Assembly: GCA_028355955.1 (NCBI GenBank)
Contig: JAOMTQ010000011.1
Span: 1 to 39,161, forward strand
Direction of reading: 5' to 3'
Length of the DNA stretch: 39,161 nt
DNA from: Methylophilaceae bacterium
GTDB lineage: Bacteria; Pseudomonadota; Gammaproteobacteria; Burkholderiales; Methylophilaceae
The translations under genes and the position numbers were made by a program. Of this stretch, positions 19,350-34,923 are shown one piece after another (position 1 is the first letter of the stretch; each line of letters opens with the position of its first letter). Under the pieces are notes generated by a model that was not told the DNA's origin, searched no databases, and was given only the letters and a program-made list of their open reading frames with translations.

Positions 19350-19963
19350 AGTAAGGCAGGAAAAACCTTTGTTGTTTTCGTATCGAAGGTGCCCATATGC
19401 TATGAGAGCTCGGATGGCATTATTATCATGCGGTATTGACTTTGATATATTTGAGATTTCTCTAAAAGATAAGCCAAAACAAATGATTGAAATTAGCCCT
19501 AAGGGAACGGTACCAGTTTTTGTATATAAGGATCTAGTGTTAGATGAAAGTATAGATATTATGAATTGGGCAGCAGAACAAAAAAATAATACCTCTATTA
19601 AAATAAATCCTAATGATTTGGAAACAATTAAAAGTCTGATAAAAAGCAATGATGGGGAATTCAAAAATAAATTAGATCTATATAAATACACAAGCAATAA
19701 AGAAGCTTCTTTAAAAATAAGATACAGAAAAGAGTGTGAAGTTTATATTAGAAATATTGATGAAATACTAGAGACACAGGAATATTTATTATCAAATAAG
19801 ATCGGTTATTTAGATATAGCTATTTTTCCATTTATACGACAGTTTTTTTAACGTAGATCTTAAGTGGTTTGAGCAAGCTTATTACAATAACTTAAAAAAT
19901 TGGGTAGATAGAATAACTAATTCTGATTTATTTATTCAGATAATGAAGAAGCCAGAATTCTAA
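19324..19963 (+). CDS. Glutathione S-transferase family protein, SspA/YibF-like (frame break)
   Basis: About 212 residues after repair. The thioredoxin-like N domain reads LLFSYRRCPYAMRARMALLS, with KGTVPVFVYKDLVLDES carrying the cis-Pro glutathione-site motif. The helical C domain ends GYLDIAIFPFIRQFF and then, in another frame, NVDLKWFEQAYYNNLKNWVD. The break is the T7 run at 19843-19849, one T too many. The start is uncertain: the ATG at 19324 lies 26 nt inside pyrD; homologs usually begin a few residues before KPLLFSYRRCP. The stop overlaps the clpA stop on the other strand (CTAA, 19960-19963). Confidence 0.85.
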
Positions 19964-22216
19964 ACGGAAGCTTTTTCATCCTCTTTGATATTAAGGACGA
20001 TTGCCTCCTTATCATCAATATCAATTTCAACTTCACCACCGTTAATTAATCGTCCAAATAAAAGTTCATCAGCAAGTGCTTTTCTAATAGTATCTTGAAT
20101 AAGCCTAGCCATAGGCCTTGCACCCATTTGTTCATCGAAACCTGATATTGCAAGATAATCTTTTAAATCTTTTGTAAATGAGGCATCAACTTTTTTATCG
20201 TGTAATTGAGTCTCTAATTGAATTAAAAACTTATCTACAACTTTCAAAATAATTTCATTGTCTAGTGAAGTAAATGAGACTGTAGCGTCAAGTCTATTTC
20301 TAAACTCAGGTGAAAAGACTTTTTTAATCTCACCATTTTCATCTCCACTTTTTTTAGTTTGTGTGAAGCCAAAATTTGATTTTGATAATGCTTCTGCACC
20401 GGCATTAGTAGTCATGATAATGGTAACATTTCGGAAGTCAGTTTTTCGACCATTGCTATCGGTCAATATACCGTTATCCATAACTTGAAGAAGAATATTA
20501 AAAATATCAGGATTTGCTTTTTCAATTTCATCAAGTAATAAAATAGAGTAGGGATTTTTGTTTACTTGTTCTGTTAGGATTCCACCTTGATCGTAACCAA
20601 CATACCCTGGAGGCGCTCCTATGAGTTTAGAAACAGAATGACGTTCCATATATTCACTCATATCAATTCTAATTAGCTCTATACCTAATGTATACGCAAG
20701 CTGTCTTGCTACTTCAGTCTTACCAACTCCGGTTGGACCACTAAAGAGAAAGCTCCCAATTGGTCTATCTATTGGACCAATCCCACTTCGTGACATTTTA
20801 ATTGCATTAGATAGGGTTTCAATAGCTTTGTCTTGGCCAAATATCACTGCTTTTAAATCTCTCTCAAGGTTTTTGAGTGAGCTTCTGTCATCTTTATTTA
20901 TATTTTTAGCTGGTATACGTGCAATTTTCGCGATTACATCTTCAATTTCTTTTGAGCCAATATTCTTTTTTTGTTTTGATTTAGGTAAAATTCTTTGCGC
21001 CGCACCCGCTTCGTCAATAATATCTATTGCTTTGTCAGGCAAACGTCTGTCATTTAAAAATTTTGCAGACAATTCAGCTGCACTAATCAATGCATTATTA
21101 GTAAACTTAACATTATGATGACTCTCAAAATGAGTTTTTAAACCCTTAAGAATTTCTATAGTGTTTTTAACGGATGGCTCTTCAACATCTATTTTTTTGG
21201 AATCGTCTTGTCAAGGCGTGATCTTTTTCAAATACTGATCTAAATTCTTGGTACGTTGTTGCACCTATACATTTAACATTGCCTCTTGCCAAAGCGGGTT
21301 TTAAAATATTTGATGCGTCCAATGTTCCTCCACTTGCTGATCCTGCTCCAATAATAGTATGAATTTCATCAATAAATAAAATAGAATTTTTTTGTTCTCC
21401 AAGCTGTTTTATCACAGTTTTCAGTCTTTGCTCAAAATCACCTCGATATTTTGTACCAGCAATAAGTGCACCTAGGTCAAGTGAATATATAGTCATATTT
21501 TCTAAAACTGTAGGAATATTTCTGTCTACAATTTTCTTGGCTAAACCCTCTGCAATTGCAGTTTTACCTACACCTGCTTCACCAACCAGAAGTGGATTAT
21601 TTTTTCTTCGTCTACAAAGAATTTGCACAACTCTTTCAACTTCCGGTTCTCTTCCAATTAATGGATCAATCTTACCTTCACTAACAAGTTTGTTTAAATT
21701 CACCGCATAAGTTTCTAAGCCCTTACTCGTTTTTGTATCAGAACTAGTTGTTTCTTGTGCCTGTTCTTTTTGATTATTTTCAGTAGTCTTGGCTATGCCA
21801 TGAGCAATAAAATTGACGACATCTAATCTTGCTATACCTTGCTGGTGAAGAAAGTAAACTGCATGTGAGTCTTTTTCACCAAAAATAGCAACCAAAACAT
21901 TTGCACCTGTTACCTCTTTTTTTCCTGATGATTGAACATGCAGCATTGCTCTTTGAATTACTCTTTGAAAACCCAAAGTTGGTTGGGTATCTACATCATC
22001 TTTCCCTCCAACCTTTGGTGTATGCTCTTCAATATGGCCTACAACATCTTCCCTAAGTTTGTCTAGATTGGCCCCACAGGAATTGAGAACCTCAGAGGCA
22101 GATGGGTTATCTAGCATAGCCAGTAATAAATGTTCGACGGTAATTAACTCATGACGTTTTTGTCGAGCATCCATAAATGCCATATGTAAACTAACTTCTA
22201 ATTCTTGTGCAATCAT
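19960..22216 (-). CDS. clpA: ClpA, ATP-dependent Clp protease unfoldase subunit (frame break)
   Basis: About 751 residues after removal of one base from the T7 run at 21192-21198, which restores RRFQKIDVEEPSVKNTIEIL. Present are the N domain that binds ClpS (MIAQELEVSLHMAFMDARQK), the first AAA+ module (GEAGVGKTAIAEG, ILFIDEIHTIIGAG), the second module (FSGPTGVGKTEVARQLA, GAPPGYVGYDQGG, LLLDEIEKANPDIFN) and a C-terminal D2-small domain (GARPMARLIQDTIRKALAD). It unfolds proteins for ClpP. It is the last gene of the minus-strand run and follows clpS by 7 nt. Confidence 0.97.
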
Positions 22217-24745: not shown

Positions 24746-26646
24746 TTAATTATTTTCAACTTTAAAAATTTCTCCGATGGAGATTTTTTTTATTGTTCTT
24801 TTATTCCCATAAATATAATTTACGATTCCTCTAGAGACAAAGATAGCACTATATACAGAGGTTAAAATACCAAGTACAAGAACCACAGCAAATCCTTTAA
24901 TTGGGCCAGAACCAAACATAAATAAAGCAAGACCAGCAATCATGGTTGTAATATTTGAATCAAGTATTGTCCCCCACGCTTTATCGTAGCCCTGACTAAT
25001 GCTTTTTTGAGGAGGCATCCCATTTCTAATTTCATCTCTTATACGCTCGTTAATTAGAACGTTAGCATCAATAGCCATACCAATTGTGATAGCAATCGCA
25101 GCAAGACCAGGTAATGTTAATGTTGCTTGTATTGCAGATAATAATGCTGTTAAGAACAATAAATTTACCGATAAACCAATGACTGAAACAACTCCAAAAA
25201 ACATGTAGTAAGCAATCATTAAAACAACTATAGCTGCAAAGCCCCACATCGTTGAATTAACACCGCGAGCAATATTTTCTTTTCCCATACTTGGTCCGAC
25301 CGTTCTTTCTTCTACTATCTCCATTGGGACAGAAAGTGACCCTGCTCTTAAAAGCAATGAGATATCAGTAGATTCTTGAGCATTTTCCATACCAGTAATC
25401 ATTACATTACCGCCACCAATCTCACTCTTAATTTTTGGTGCTGTAATAACTTCAGTATAATTTTTTTCAATAAGTAATAAAGCAATTCTTTTACCTATAT
25501 TCTTTCGGGTAATTTCTTTAAAAATATTAGTACCTACAGAATCTAAATCAAGATATACAACAGATTGTCCTGTCATTTGATCCACTCCTGGTGAAGCATC
25601 TTCTAATCTTTCACCAGTTAAAATTACTTCTTTTTTTTACTAAAAGAGGGTTCCCAGAGCGATCATAATAGAGTTCAGTCCCAGGGGGTAGTTGCCCATT
25701 CTCCGCTTTTTCTATGGTGGCTGGATCTGATCTGTCCTCATCTACCATTCTCATCTCTAGAATTGCGGTTCTGCCAATAATTTCTTTTGCTTTTGCAGTA
25801 TCTTGAACGCCTGGTAGTTGAACAACAATTCGATCTTGACCTTGTTGTTGGATAATTGGTTCAGCAACACCCAGCTCATTGACTCTATTATGTAAAGTTT
25901 CTAGGTTTTGCTTAAGAGCAAAGTTGACATTCTCTTCATCGGTATATTGATTATTTTTAATTTTCAAAATAAACTCATTATTATTTTTAATTTCTGAAAA
26001 ATTAAATGCTTCAGTCTCTTTTGTAGGGGAATTGCCTCCAAAAATTGAACGACCCGAACCTTGAGCTCTTATAATATTTTTTGCTTCATTTAACGCATCT
26101 TCTGATTTGAACTTTAATTGAACATAATTATTAATGACTTTTGAATCATAGTATTTAATATTTTCTTTTTGTAATTCTTTTCTTACATTTACTAAAAAAA
26201 CCGTCATTCTTTTTTTCTGACAGTTTCGACAAATCAAGTTGCATTAGAAAATGAACACCACCTCTGAGATCTAGACCTAAATACATTGGTAAAGCACCAA
26301 GATTAGATAACCAATCGGGGGAGTTTGATATAAGATTTAGCGCTACAACAAATTTATTACCTAAACTTTTTTCAATAACTTGCTTTGCATTTAATTGATC
26401 GGTTGCCTCTTTAAATTTAATTTTTATATCAGTATCTTCAAAAGAAATTCCAATATTTTGGATATTTGCTTTTTCAAGGGCTGATTCAACTAATTTAAGT
26501 GTAGACCGATCAACTGTCTCGCCTGCTTTCACAGGCATCACTTGGACAGCAAAGGATTCGCCATAAAAATTTGGTGTGACATACAGAAAACTTAATCCTA
26601 TAGTTAAAAGGATTAATATATATTTCCAACTAGAATACTGATTCAT
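24746..26646 (-). CDS. secD: Protein-export membrane protein SecD (two frame breaks)
   Basis: About 632 residues after two corrections. Segment 1 holds the first membrane helix and GLDLRGGVHFLMQLDLSKL. Segment 2 holds the periplasmic P1 region (RVNELGVAEPIIQQQGQDRI, VVQLPGVQDTAKAKEIIGRT). Segment 3 holds the rest of P1 and the five-helix membrane block (AIAITIGMAIDANVLINERI). Breaks lie in an A7 run at 26194-26200 and a T8 run at 25631-25638 (plus-strand letters), each one base too many; repair gives KKNDGFLVNVRKEL and LLVKKEVILTGERLEDASPG. Both joins match the family. Partner of SecF in the same transcript. Confidence 0.97.
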
Positions 26647-28982: not shown

Positions 28983-30516
28983 ATGAATGAATTAATCATT
29001 TTTGACACAACGCTTCGCGATGGCGAACAAAGCCCAGGAGCTTCGATGACTCAAGAAGAAAAGTTGAGGATTGCAAAGCAGCTTGAAAAATTAGGTGTGA
29101 ATGTCATAGAAGCTGGATTTGCTGCTGCTAGTCCCGGAGATTTCAGTTCAATTAAAGCTATCTCAAAAATTATAGAAAAATCAACTGTTTGTTCATTAGC
29201 AAGAGCGCTTGAAAGTGATATAAAAAAAGCAGGTCAAGCTATTCAGCCAGCTAAGCATAAAAGAATTCATACTTTTATCGCAACAAGCAAAATTCATATG
29301 GAAAATAAGTTAAGAATGACCCCTGATCAAGTTTTAAAGAGGGGGGTTGAAGCTGTAAAGTGGTCATTGGATTATACTGACGACGTTGAATTTTCAGCTG
29401 AAGATGCAGTGAGATCGGATGTAAATTTTTTAATTGAAATTTTCGATGCTGTTATTAAGGCAGGTGCTAAAACGATCAACGTACCAGACACAGTAGGGTA
29501 TTCAATACCTAAGAGCTGGGGGAACCTTATGAATGAATTAATTTCAAAAGTACCAAATTCACAAAGCGTTATATGGTCGACACATTGTCATAACGATTTA
29601 GGTATGGCGGTCGCAAATTCTTTATCTGCTGTTCAAAATGGTGCAAGACAAGTGGAATGCACAATTAATGGCTTGGGAGAGAGGGCTGGTAATGCAAGTC
29701 TTGAGGAAATTGTAATGTCTGTCAAAACGAGAAAAGATATTTTTAATCTCGAAACTAAAATTAATACTGAGCAAATTGTGGCAACTTCTAGGTTAGTCTC
29801 AAACATCACTGGCTATCCTGTTCAACCAAATAAGGCGATTGTGGGCGCAAATGCATTTGCTCATGAATCAGGTATTCATCAAGATGGTGTTTTAAAACAT
29901 CGAGAAACTTATGAAATCATGAGAGCACAAGATGTAGGTTGGGGGGCCAACAAGATTTCATTAGGTAAGTTATCTGGGCGAAATGCATTCAAAAATAGAT
30001 TGGTAGAACTAGGTATTGAATTAGATTCTGAGGAGGTTTTAAATTCTACATTTGATAGATTTAAGGCGCTCGCTGATAAAAAATCTGAAATTTATGATGA
30101 GGATATTCATGCACTAGTTACTGAAGAATTTGTATCTGTTGCTGTTGATCGATTTAAACTTGTTTCATTAAAATCTATTACTGATACACAAAAAAAAACC
30201 TTATGCAGAAATTGAAATTTCAGTAGACGGAGAGTTAAAAAATGCAAAGGCAGAAGGTGGAGGTCCAGTTGACGCAACGTTTAAAGCCATTGAACTAATT
30301 GCAAAATCTAATACAGAGCTCTTATTGTACTCGGTAAACAACATTACCTCAGGCACAGACTCAAAAGGTCAAGTCACTGTAAGGCTTGCCAAAGGAGGAA
30401 GAGTAGTAAATGGTTTAGGTTCGGATACTGATATTGTTATTGCCTCATCGATGGCCTATCTCAACGCACTAAATAAACTCGTTTCCAAAGCAGAGCGAGC
30501 TCACCCTCAAGTCTAA
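28983..30516 (+). CDS. leuA: 2-isopropylmalate synthase (frame break)
   Basis: About 510 residues after correction. The TIM barrel opens [20 protein letters not shown] and includes [17 protein letters not shown] with the metal-binding His pair and [14 protein letters not shown]. The linker holds [14 protein letters not shown]. The C-terminal regulatory domain, which binds leucine for feedback inhibition, starts at the break: the A9 run at 30190-30198 has one base too many, and repair yields [19 protein letters not shown]. It ends [20 protein letters not shown]. It commits 2-oxoisovalerate and acetyl-CoA to leucine. Confidence 0.97.
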
Positions 30517-32062: not shown

Positions 32063-33414
32063 ATGCTTGAAAATTTAACAGACAAACTTCAATCGGTAGT
32101 AAAAACAATTCGGGGACAAGCTCGCTTCACAGAAGAAAATATCAGTGATGCAATGAGGGAAGTGCGTATAGCACTGATTGAGGCAGATGTTGCAATACCA
32201 GTAGTTAAATATTTTATAGATAAAGTAAAAGAAAAGGCATTAGGGGCTGAAGTTTTAAAAAGTGTTTCTCCTGGGCAAGCAATTATCAAGATAGTGCAAG
32301 ATGAACTGACAAGTTTGATGGGGAGTGATAATGCTGAGTTAAATATTGCTACAAAACCACCTGCTATTGTTTTGATGGCAGGTCTTCAGGGTTCAGGTAA
32401 AACAACAACAGCAGCTAAGTTAGCCAAAATTCTAAAAGAGGAGAAGAAAAAAGTTTTGTTAGTCAGCGCAGATGTTTATCGACCTGCAGCGATAGAACAA
32501 CTTAAAACTTTAGCGGATTCATTAGAAATAGAATGTTTTGATTCGTCAGTAAAGGATAAACCAAAAAATATTGCTTCCTCCGTTCTGACTTATGCAAAAA
32601 AACATTATTTTGATGTGATTATTTTTGATACCGCCGGTCGTCTGGGCATTGATGAATTAATGATGAAGGAAATTAAAGAACTTCACAAAATATTAAATCC
32701 AATTGAAACACTTTTTGTTGTTGATGCAATGCAGGGGCAAGATGCTGTTAATACAGCAAAAGCTTTTGGAGATACGTTACCTCTAACAGGCATTGTATTG
32801 ACAAAATTGGATGGAGATTCAAGAGGTGGAGCAGCTTTATCGGTAAGACATGTGACTGGAAAGCCAATTAAATATATTGGTGTGAGTGAAAAAGTGTCAG
32901 GCCTGGAGGTTTTTTACCCAGATCGTATATCTTCTCGAATTCTTGGGATGGGAGATATTGTAGGTCTAGTTGAAGAGGCTCAGAAAAATGTAGATATTAA
33001 AGAAGCTGAAAAAATAGCAGATAAAGTCAAGTCTGGCAAAAATTTTGATTTAGATGATTTTAAAAATCAAATTGGACAGATGAAAAAGATGGGAGGCGTT
33101 GGGGCAATGATGGATAACTCCCATCTCAGTTAGCAGGTAATGCATCAAAAATAGATCCAGAACAAGGAGATAAGTCGATGATGCAAATTGAAGCAATTAT
33201 TAATTCCATGACGAAATTAGAGAAAACAAAGCCTGAAATCATCAAAGCAAAAAGAAAGATAAGGATTGCAAACGGATCTGGAGTAAAAGTCCAAGATGTT
33301 AATCGCCTTCTTAAGCAATTTGGAGAAATGCAAAAAATGATGAAAATGTTCTCAAAAGGTGGAATTGGTAAAATGATGAGAGGCCTTGCGGGTAAAATTC
33401 CGGGTATAAACTAA
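32063..33414 (+). CDS. ffh: Signal recognition particle protein Ffh (frame break by base loss)
   Basis: About 450 residues. The N domain is followed by the G domain with [43 protein letters not shown] and [14 protein letters not shown]. The methionine-rich M domain ([12 protein letters not shown], then [20 protein letters not shown]) binds signal peptides and 4.5S RNA. The reading frame breaks at 33116-33117, where one A appears missing: restoring AAA gives [15 protein letters not shown]. This is the only break in the window that needs an added base. Ffh is essential, which argues strongly for an error and not decay. Confidence 0.97.
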
Positions 33415-33715: not shown

Positions 33716-34720
33716 ATGTATATTGTTAAAAAATTAATTTTTACTCTCCTTTTCTTATTACCATCACATTTACTTGCATATCCAGCACAATCTGAATTAT
33801 TTGGGTTGAGTGAGTCGATGACTCATATTTGGGTTACCTTTAAAGATGGCGTTACCGGAACAGGCTCAGGCATTGTTGTAAAGAAGAATCATGTAGCAAC
33901 GAATTGTCATGTATTAGCAGATTCTAGAGGTGTTAATGCAGTGAAGTATTTTAAAACATATGTACCGATTGCGATTTATGCAGATTGGGAAAATGATTTA
34001 TGTATTTTAAAATTTGATGACTTGCCTTTACCTCCGGTCAACGTCGGAAAATCTGATAATCTCAATTATGAAGATAAAGTATTTGCTTTGACTTTTCCTA
34101 ATGACAATCCGGTTCCATTACCATCTTATGGTCATGTTAAAGCACTTTATCCTTTTAAAGGAGGTAATGTTATTCGAACATCTGCCTCATTTACGCTTGG
34201 TTCAAGCGGAGGTGGTTTATTTGATTTAGATTTTAATCTAATCGGGATTACAACCTTCAAAAGCCCTGGCAGAAGATTTGGAAATTTTTATTGTATCCCA
34301 TCAGAATGGATCGAAAGACTTTTATTGGAAGAGCCGCAAATAGACTTAACTAGCACAGGTAGGCCATTCTGGAGTTTACCCGACGAAGAAAAACCATTCT
34401 TTATGCAAATTATAATGCCTATGGAAAAGAAGAAATGGGAAAAAATGTTAGATATTGCTAAAAGATGGACACAAGCTGATGAGGATAGTGCAGATGCTTG
34501 GTATTATCTAGGTTATGCAAAAGCAAAAATGGGCAGTTTAGATTATGCAAAACTATTTCTAAAGCAGGCTTATAAACTGAATGACCGACATTTAGAATCA
34601 CTGGTTGAGTTATATGATATATCTGTAATCCAATCAGATACAAATGAATCACAGAGAATCTTAGGATTAATCAAAGTAATAAATCCAGAGAGAGCAGATT
34701 ATATAGCTAAAAAATCTTAA
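33716..34720 (+). CDS. Secreted trypsin-like serine protease with C-terminal helical repeat
   Basis: 334 residues. A signal peptide (IFTLLFLLPSHLLA, cleavage near residue 21) is followed by a trypsin-fold domain with the triad His65 (VATNCHVLAD), Asp94 (WENDLCILKF) and Ser164 (TLGSSGGGLFD). There is no PDZ domain, so it is not a standard DegP/DegQ. The C-terminal 90 residues (about 240-325) look like TPR-type helices (DSADAWYYLGYAKAKMGSLD, YAKLFLKQAYKLNDRHLESL). It probably works in the periplasm or at the surface, the repeat serving as a partner-binding arm; substrate unknown. No clear ribosome binding site is seen. The stop lies 7 nt from the 3' end of the converging tRNA-Arg. Confidence 0.85.
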   Translation: MYIVKKLIFTLLFLLPSHLLAYPAQSELFGLSESMTHIWVTFKDGVTGTGSGIVVKKNHVATNCHVLADSRGVNAVKYFKTYVPIAIYADWENDLCILKFDDLPLPPVNVGKSDNLNYEDKVFALTFPNDNPVPLPSYGHVKALYPFKGGNVIRTSASFTLGSSGGGLFDLDFNLIGITTFKSPGRRFGNFYCIPSEWIERLLLEEPQIDLTSTGRPFWSLPDEEKPFFMQIIMPMEKKKWEKMLDIAKRWTQADEDSADAWYYLGYAKAKMGSLDYAKLFLKQAYKLNDRHLESLVELYDISVIQSDTNESQRILGLIKVINPERADYIAKKS

Positions 34721-34726
34721 AGTAAT

Positions 34727-34803
34727 TGGCGCGCCCGAGAAGATTCGAACTCCTGACCCCTTGGTTCGAAGCCAAGTACTCTATCCAGCTGAGCTACGGG
34801 CGC
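34727..34803 (-). tRNA. tRNA-Arg (anticodon TCG)
   Basis: 77 nt with encoded CCA. Acceptor GCGCCCG/CGGGCGC, discriminator G, anticodon stem CTTGG/CCAAG with loop CTTCGAA, T loop TTCGAAT. Identical to its neighbour except at base 34 (T here). The TCG anticodon is less usual in Proteobacteria than ACG or CCG; it should read CGA and CGG. Confidence 0.95.
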
Positions 34804-34831
34804 TTTTAGTAATTAAAATTCTTAAAGTAAT

Positions 34832-34908
34832 TGGCGCGCCCGAGAAGATTCGAACTCCTGACCCCTTGGTTCGTAGCCAAGTACTCTATCCAGCTGAGCT
34901 ACGGGCGC
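34832..34908 (-). tRNA. tRNA-Arg (anticodon ACG)
   Basis: 77 nt with encoded CCA, the same cloverleaf as the downstream copy, anticodon loop CTACGAA. A34 would be converted to inosine by TadA, so it reads CGU, CGC and CGA. It is promoter-proximal; the TCG copy follows after 28 bases, so both are likely on one transcript. Confidence 0.97.
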
Positions 34909-34917
34909 ACTCATGTC

Positions 34918-34923
34918 ATTATA
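34918..34923 (-). promoter_or_regulatory. Possible -10 box of the tRNA-Arg pair
   Basis: TATAAT on the minus strand ends 9 bases before the tRNA-Arg(ACG) 5' end. No good -35 is seen at the usual spacing (ACTTCC at 17). If real, it overlaps the spacer after the lipoprotein gene and gives a leader of only a few bases. Confidence 0.4.

Follow-up and report, generated by a model that had tools for sequence, protein, structure and literature searches.

The window analysed here is a stretch of 39,161 nucleotides, contig C4 of a 1.09 Mb genome that is 78.6% complete and whose genus we take to be the marine OM43 of the family Methylophilaceae. Two adjacent tRNA-Arg genes lie on its minus strand (ARAGORN, Rfam RF00005). 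The first in the pair, with anticodon ACG, is the parental copy and occupies positions 34832-34908; the second, the switched copy with anticodon TCG, occupies positions 34727-34803. Both exceed the RF00005 cut-off, with 61.9 bits for the ACG gene and 64.7 bits for the TCG gene, and ARAGORN recognises the latter as a tRNA with anticodon TCG. The two copies differ at 1 of 77 positions, the wobble base 34, which is A in the ACG gene (t at 34874 on the plus strand) and T in the TCG gene (a at 34769 on the plus strand), exactly as the original prediction had described. A 28-nt spacer (34804-34831, minus strand) separates the genes, and sequence comparison identified the same 12-base trailer, tcttaaagtaat on the plus strand, downstream of both. 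The trailer of the ACG gene is found at 34820-34831 and that of the TCG gene at 34715-34726 (both minus strand), where it overlaps the last bases of a convergent open reading frame (33716-34720). When each gene was folded alone, the minimum-energy structure was a cloverleaf for neither copy (z -1.24 and -0.60).

A TATAAT motif just upstream of the ACG gene (34918-34923, minus strand) is the probable -10 element for both genes, judging from the upstream sequences. This motif is kept in nearly all relatives compared, with TGATAAT in L040. A generic promoter and terminator scan returned zero sites on the strand of the pair and did not flag the motif. Since a promoter-like site has no match on that strand of the spacer, we infer that a single promoter and a single transcript, starting from the TATAAT upstream of the ACG gene, would serve both genes. 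The product of the second gene, tRNA-Arg(UCG), should keep ArgRS recognition and arginine charging, because 76 of its 77 bases are the same as those of tRNA-Arg(ACG).

The tandem ACG-TCG pair was found in 26 of 31 OM43 genomes (G000-G030), and Methylopumilus genomes also carry it, so that the TCG copy is conserved in sister genomes as had been anticipated. G010 has the TCG gene only, near a contig end, and no pair was found in G004, G005, G013 and G023. OM43 is the marine sister lineage of Methylopumilus (PMC10872708). A SecA tree of 27 sequences, in which the 21 OM43, 3 Methylopumilus and 3 outgroup rows each stand apart with 100/100 support, is compatible with that relationship.

For the family as a whole, a pattern search was applied to 150 Methylophilaceae genomes from 24 genera, comprising 23 OM43, 16 Methylopumilus and 111 others. 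The TCG tRNA pattern was present in 20 of the 23 OM43 and 10 of the 16 Methylopumilus genomes, and within this sample the TCG tRNA was observed in these two lineages only. Matches to the TCG pattern in 12 other family genomes are unlike tRNA-Arg(TCG); ARAGORN called zero tRNAs at the loci fetched from 6 of them, and the remaining ones were judged by eye. The tRNA-Arg(CCG) pattern occurred in 0/23 OM43, 0/16 Methylopumilus and 107/111 other genomes, and ARAGORN called tRNA-Arg(CCG) at 27 of 30 such loci fetched. As for the exceptions among the 111, G079 has a CCG tRNA (BLAST and ARAGORN), G154 has a 42-base piece of one at a contig end, and in G179 and G144 a CCG tRNA was not found. A CCG tRNA of the family served as BLAST query against 23 genomes, of which 16 belong to OM43 or Methylopumilus, and the matches typed from those 16 were other tRNAs only. 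Within the sensitivity of the searches (pattern, BLAST, RF00005), a hidden CCG gene in the OM43 or Methylopumilus genomes examined was detected by neither the pattern, nor BLAST, nor the tRNA inventory, and a conserved CCG gene accompanied by a TCG copy confined to this assembly is excluded to the same extent. No genome of the 150 was seen to have TCG and CCG together. The distribution of TCG and CCG in the sampled family is thus complementary, which supports the proposal that the UCG tRNA replaces tRNA-Arg(CCG); as OM43 and Methylopumilus may represent one evolutionary event, the genome counts are dependent.

The loss of C34 tRNAs in OM43 is broader than arginine. In two near-complete OM43 genomes (99% and 96%), 35 and 36 distinct tRNA genes were counted, the arginine tRNAs being ACG, TCG, TCT and CCT. 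G031 has CCG as well as Gly(CCC), Leu(CAG), Ser(CGA) and Thr(CGT), all of which are missing from both near-complete genomes; the tRNA list of G031 shows no Ser(GGA) and may be incomplete. A gene of the TadA family scored above the cut-off of a profile search in all 10 genomes tested, including the window's own, 4/4 OM43 and 2/2 Methylopumilus. One such gene lies at G000:C16, and in G003 and G031 the TadA-matched stretch contains one TAA. TadA is kept, and therefore the ACG gene should still yield inosine at position 34. The I34 tRNA would then read CGU and CGC, and the U34 tRNA would read CGA and CGG. Inosine does not read G (PMC3711424, PMC4041420), so that the loss of C34 tRNAs would have needed a new U34 tRNA in the arginine box only. 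CGG is rare yet still in use: five samples from OM43 and Methylopumilus have 8.8-18.0 of it per 10,000 codons.

We consider it highly probable that the pair is a two-gene arginine unit that completes CGN decoding without tRNA-Arg(CCG), and that it arose through duplication, anticodon switch, loss of CCG and homogenisation. In the order that we reconstruct, the tRNA-Arg(ACG) gene that follows an aspartokinase-like gene and tRNA-Ser(GCT) would have been tandemly duplicated in the ancestor of OM43 and Methylopumilus, and base 34 of one ACG copy would have changed from A to T. With CGA and CGG presumably read by the new tRNA-Arg(UCG), and CGU and CGC by the inosine tRNA, tRNA-Arg(CCG) would have become dispensable and would have been lost as the genome shifted towards AT and was streamlined, as were other C34 tRNAs from four-codon boxes. 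The copies may at times be homogenised by gene conversion or some similar process, with selection holding A and T apart.

A competing account, to which we give somewhat less than an even chance, is that the TCG gene is mainly an adaptation to CGA, in that AT-bias raised the demand for a codon that I34 reads poorly and CCG was lost only afterwards, as a by-product. It overlaps the main explanation, and differs on the order of events and the main driver. Codon use speaks for it, as the share of CGA among CGN codons is 17-43% for 13 TCG genomes and 3-22% for 16 ACG+CCG genomes; of the 13, 12 have more CGA than CGG, and in G001 the two are equal. The main explanation draws on codon use too: when CGA/CGT was divided by the A/T ratio of seven other boxes, the resulting measure was 0.66-1.65 in the 13 TCG samples (OM43 and Methylopumilus) versus 0.12-0.67 in the 16 ACG+CCG family samples (Mann-Whitney p 3e-6, for samples of 20-60 kb each, with kinship ignored among 29 genomes that are not independent). 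In this family, genomes with TCG avoid CGA far less, with GC content as a confounder. The GC trend among the ACG+CCG samples, itself weak (p 0.10), gives about 0.44 when extrapolated to 34% GC, and GC alone is not an obvious explanation of the higher CGA measure. GGA/GGT is likewise higher in TCG genomes, and a general relaxation of codon bias covaries with TCG, as does GC. Two further points favour the competing account: TCG can coexist with CCG, as it does in 15 of 49 genomes reached from tandem loci, and a change from A to C would have been equally simple and would have given CCG itself, yet T was chosen. Against it stand the sampled family, where TCG and CCG were not seen together in any genome, and two Orbaceae that have TCG and no CCG match but still avoid CGA (0.15 and 0.36), which counts against the main explanation too. 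Elsewhere, the CGA measure was 0.83, i.e., no avoidance, in an Oleiphilus MAG with TCG, and 0.36, 1.03, 1.26 and 1.38 in four genomes with both TCG and CCG. The relief of poor I34-CGA reading, which the original prediction had offered as a second possible benefit, hence fits the codon use of Methylophilaceae but is not universal.

The history of the locus can be followed in relatives. Three states occur at one type of locus, which is marked by tRNA-Ser(GCT) and a neighbour with AA_kinase and ACT domains, presumably an aspartokinase-like gene: a single ACG (L059), ACG-ACG (L043), and ACG-TCG, the last in OM43, Methylopumilus and several Gammaproteobacteria. In the window's genome, the Ser gene and its neighbour are at the start of a separate contig (L023, C17), and the linkage is seen in relatives. 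Because unswitched single and double states exist at a matching locus, a history in which tRNA-Arg(ACG) was duplicated and one copy then underwent a single A34-to-T anticodon mutation, as originally proposed, is supported as the probable one. L043 (G057:C366) comes from a genome assigned to another family; its two ACG tRNAs are identical to the Methylophilaceae ACG tRNA of L059, and a similar aspartokinase gene is in its neighbourhood. It may be a misbinned contig or a genuine unswitched precursor.

Duplicated or separated copies were also observed elsewhere in the order. L339 (G040:C1) has an alternating array, Ser(GCT)-Arg(ACG)-Glu(TTC)-Arg(ACG)-Glu(TTC), with a duplicated ACG. An order-level sample of 130 genomes was searched with a combined TCG/CCG pattern, and among the matches listed, TCG tRNA-like sequences were present in G054, G311 and possibly G275, of which only that of G054 was typed. 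G054 does not have the same simple pair, since its TCG gene is 492 nt from the ACG gene and differs from it at 12 positions. In this 1.8 Mb genome (G054:C8, L341/L350) an aspartokinase-like gene is near the ACG and TCG genes, and by eye the TCG copy is more like the Methylophilaceae ACG type than is its own ACG copy.

The duplication in OM43 is old, not recent. Compared with one OM43 branch, the SecA of the window shows 64-66% identity, a level similar to that found with outgroups. Across the 26 OM43 pairs, 1 to 4 differences separate the copies, base 34 always being one of them. The copies are alike at 73-76 of 77 positions despite the large protein divergence within OM43, and later changes that they share hint at the cause. 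The comparison comprised 36 rows from OM43 and Methylopumilus, meant as one per genome, with 12 distinct pair sequences (15 repeated genomes were left out, and L242 may still repeat G085). Base 34 was A and T, respectively, in 36/36 pairs. A double change in the T-stem, for which the ancestral form was taken from the family members L059, L060 and L319, was present in both copies of all 9 genomes having the derived state, and may be one event. T16 in the D-loop occurs in 4 genomes, of which 2 (G017, G029) have it in both copies, and A at base 74 in 3, of which 1 (G009) has it in both; the tree places G017 amid genomes whose copies both have C, and G009 next to genomes whose copies both have G. 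Single shared sites of this kind could be explained by common ancestry, parallel change or re-duplication. The two trailers of a pair share an identical run of 12 bases in G000 and of 16 in G014, two related genomes in which the sequence of the run differs, and of 0-5 bases in the other 34 rows. A reading of the matching flanks as the mark of a simple recent duplication finds no support, since the pair is old and its copies have later changes in common.

Some changes are confined to the TCG copy. Column 45 (about nucleotide 44) has T only in TCG copies, in 12/36 pairs. This G-to-T change near tRNA position 44 is seen in more than one OM43 clade and may tune the switched tRNA. In 3/36 pairs, columns 6 and 68 change jointly, and in the TCG copy only, a covariation that appears to preserve a stem pair and would be a sign of a functional TCG copy. 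Changes in the TCG copy alone at columns 5, 6, 45 and 68 indicate that homogenisation is not constant. The simplest reading of these alignments is occasional homogenisation, probably by gene conversion, with selection keeping base 34 different.

The same observations bear on an unlikely alternative, in which the switch occurred independently, or the pair was re-created from ACG several times, across OM43 lineages. Re-duplication would also yield the derived T-stem in both copies of 9 genomes, and the identical trailers of G000 and G014, with their differing sequences, suit it as well. On the other hand, the gene order around the pair is alike in OM43 and Methylopumilus, T34 is present in all 36 pairs, the sister relationship of the two lineages (PMC10872708) accords with a single origin and the SecA tree is compatible with it, and repeated loss followed by an identical re-switch takes more events.

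The state of U34 matters to a further possibility. CmoB is needed for cmo5U34. Full-length CmoB matches were obtained in two Orbaceae (E 1e-155 or better), and none in the 8 Methylophilaceae genomes searched, where the matches were weak and partial (about 110/315 positions, 5 of them above the Pfam cut-off). These partial matches are probably other methyltransferases, and U34 is then probably not cmo5U. If U34 were unmodified, the TCG tRNA might superwobble over all four CGN codons and make the ACG gene mostly superfluous. For one Mollicute, tRNA-Arg(UCG) by itself is believed to suffice for the CGN box (PMC3711424), and the lack of a full-length CmoB match in those 8 genomes points the same way; but the ACG pattern is present in 20 of the 23 OM43 genomes sampled, TadA in all 6 OM43 and Methylopumilus genomes tested, and an ACG copy distinct at base 34 in 36/36 pairs, and we regard this possibility as improbable, more so than repeated creation of the pair.

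It is very improbable that the TCG gene was gained by horizontal transfer. Wald and Margalit infer transfer together with an A-to-T switch for Natranaerobius (PMC4041420); here, however, the TCG gene adjoins the resident ACG gene, 73-76 of 77 bases are identical in the 26 OM43 pairs, and the TCG copy has some lineage-specific variants of the resident ACG copy. That the pair is an assembly or sequencing artefact, as might be feared from the broken reading frames of several conserved genes in the window, can be practically dismissed, since the identical two bases recur in assemblies made independently, among them complete LSUCC genomes and the KB13 and HTCC2181 scaffolds, and the A/T difference at base 34 in all 36 OM43 and Methylopumilus pairs rules out an error of a single assembly.

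The window may have defects of its own. Several conserved genes look frame-broken or shortened at 19960-22216, 24746-26237, 28983-30215 and 32063-33133, and by domain matches they include a Clp ATPase, an HMGL-like gene and SRP54; we take the last two to be LeuA and Ffh, and a further one to be probably SecD. These broken frames suggest uncorrected indels in the assembly. SecA matches with many in-frame stops, 13 in L411 (G014) and 17 in L435 (G029), point to low-quality assemblies among the OM43 MAGs.

Tandem pairs of this kind are not rare, contrary to what had been expected of a parent and product lying side by side. A scan of 84,980 species genomes for ACG followed in tandem by TCG gave at least 117 loci, of which at least 110 were confirmed by ARAGORN as pairs within 60 nt, with a one-base difference in at least 12. 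Going by record titles, the lineages represented include, among others, Gilliamella, Orbus and other Orbaceae, Acetobacteraceae genera, Acidobacteria, actinobacterial MAGs, Ignavibacteria, Armatimonadetes, Chloroflexota and Legionellales. For 4 of the 45 representatives compared (L217, L188, L221, L193), the nearest match of the TCG gene is the ACG gene beside it and not a tRNA of another representative, which suggests independent origins for these four; for most of the remaining ones, the TCG gene of another representative matches equally well or better, in part because several share a lineage, and 77 bases give limited resolution. The CCG pattern was present in 19 of 49 genomes from tandem-pattern loci (15 confirmed by ARAGORN), and the other 30 gave no match; the absence of CCG in these 30 is uncertain, many being MAGs of unspecified completeness. 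L169, L260, L266 and L271 are MAG contigs titled Bifidobacterium breve, labels that may be wrong; the TCG tRNA of L169 has the same sequence as the one in an actinobacterial lake MAG (L220). When plasmids were searched with the locus, 9 records matched; the matches listed lie within the query's tRNA stretch and come from other genera.

It is about an even bet that the tandem ACG array is a recurrent switch point in many bacterial lineages, at which the downstream copy turned into TCG independently, after which the pair evolves partly in concert by gene conversion and selection purges conversion at base 34. If so, each pair would be a 77-bp natural experiment on one nucleotide, in which homogenisation is set against selection. 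It would also mark a stage at which the CGG-only tRNA is removed while CGG can still be read, and might act as a barrier to the reassignment of CGG.

The decoding set itself is already published (PMC4041420, PMC3711424), and the pair is a clear example of a published solution. Among the 319 genomes of Wald and Margalit (2014), 239 bacteria have ACG+CCG, 24 have ACG+UCG and 26 have both; UCG is used at low GC, and 2 of 5 gains inferred to result from anticodon mutation are ACG to UCG (PMC4041420). Their scenario iii is duplication followed by mutation, with flank similarity cited for one Gly case (PMC4041420). The OM43 pair resembles these cases in its ACG+UCG arginine set and ACG-to-UCG mutation, and differs from them, as they are presented there, in that parent and product are adjacent, single, double and switched states exist in relatives, and later changes are common to the copies even though base 34 differs (PMC4041420). 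Reduced genomes of Mollicutes lack tRNA-Arg(CCG), and some add tRNA-Arg(UCG), which helps read CGA and CGG (PMC3711424). Unlike the Mollicutes described in that account, the present lineages are streamlined Proteobacteria with TadA in all 6 OM43 and Methylopumilus genomes tested, and the tandem origin is visible (PMC3711424); a TadA loss of the Mollicute type is not the case in any of the 10 genomes searched. Anticodon switching was reported in 8 of 416 bacteria, and in a yeast experiment it replaced a deleted tRNA (UCU to CCU) (PMC3868979); there, as here, a single wobble-base change makes another isoacceptor for the same amino acid. In a further published system, a tandem isoacceptor duplication compensates for a missing C34 tRNA, as it would here; unlike the OM43 pair, the duplications reported for it are large (45-290 kb), with no anticodon switch in the isolates described.

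A limited literature search found no account of the ACG-TCG pair in OM43 or Methylopumilus. What is added here is the complementary distribution, the three-step locus, signs that the copies are homogenised except at base 34, and evidence for a wide occurrence of the tandem switch. For low-GC Firmicutes without tRNA-UCG, in which reassignment of CGG has been predicted (PMC8629427), the OM43 pair provides a comparison. Copies that stay nearly identical over long times except at base 34 may allow conversion and selection on one nucleotide to be measured. For OM43 and Methylopumilus, the pair would mean that a streamlined bacterium can lose a tRNA that is mandatory by wobble rules through making a broader isoacceptor next door.
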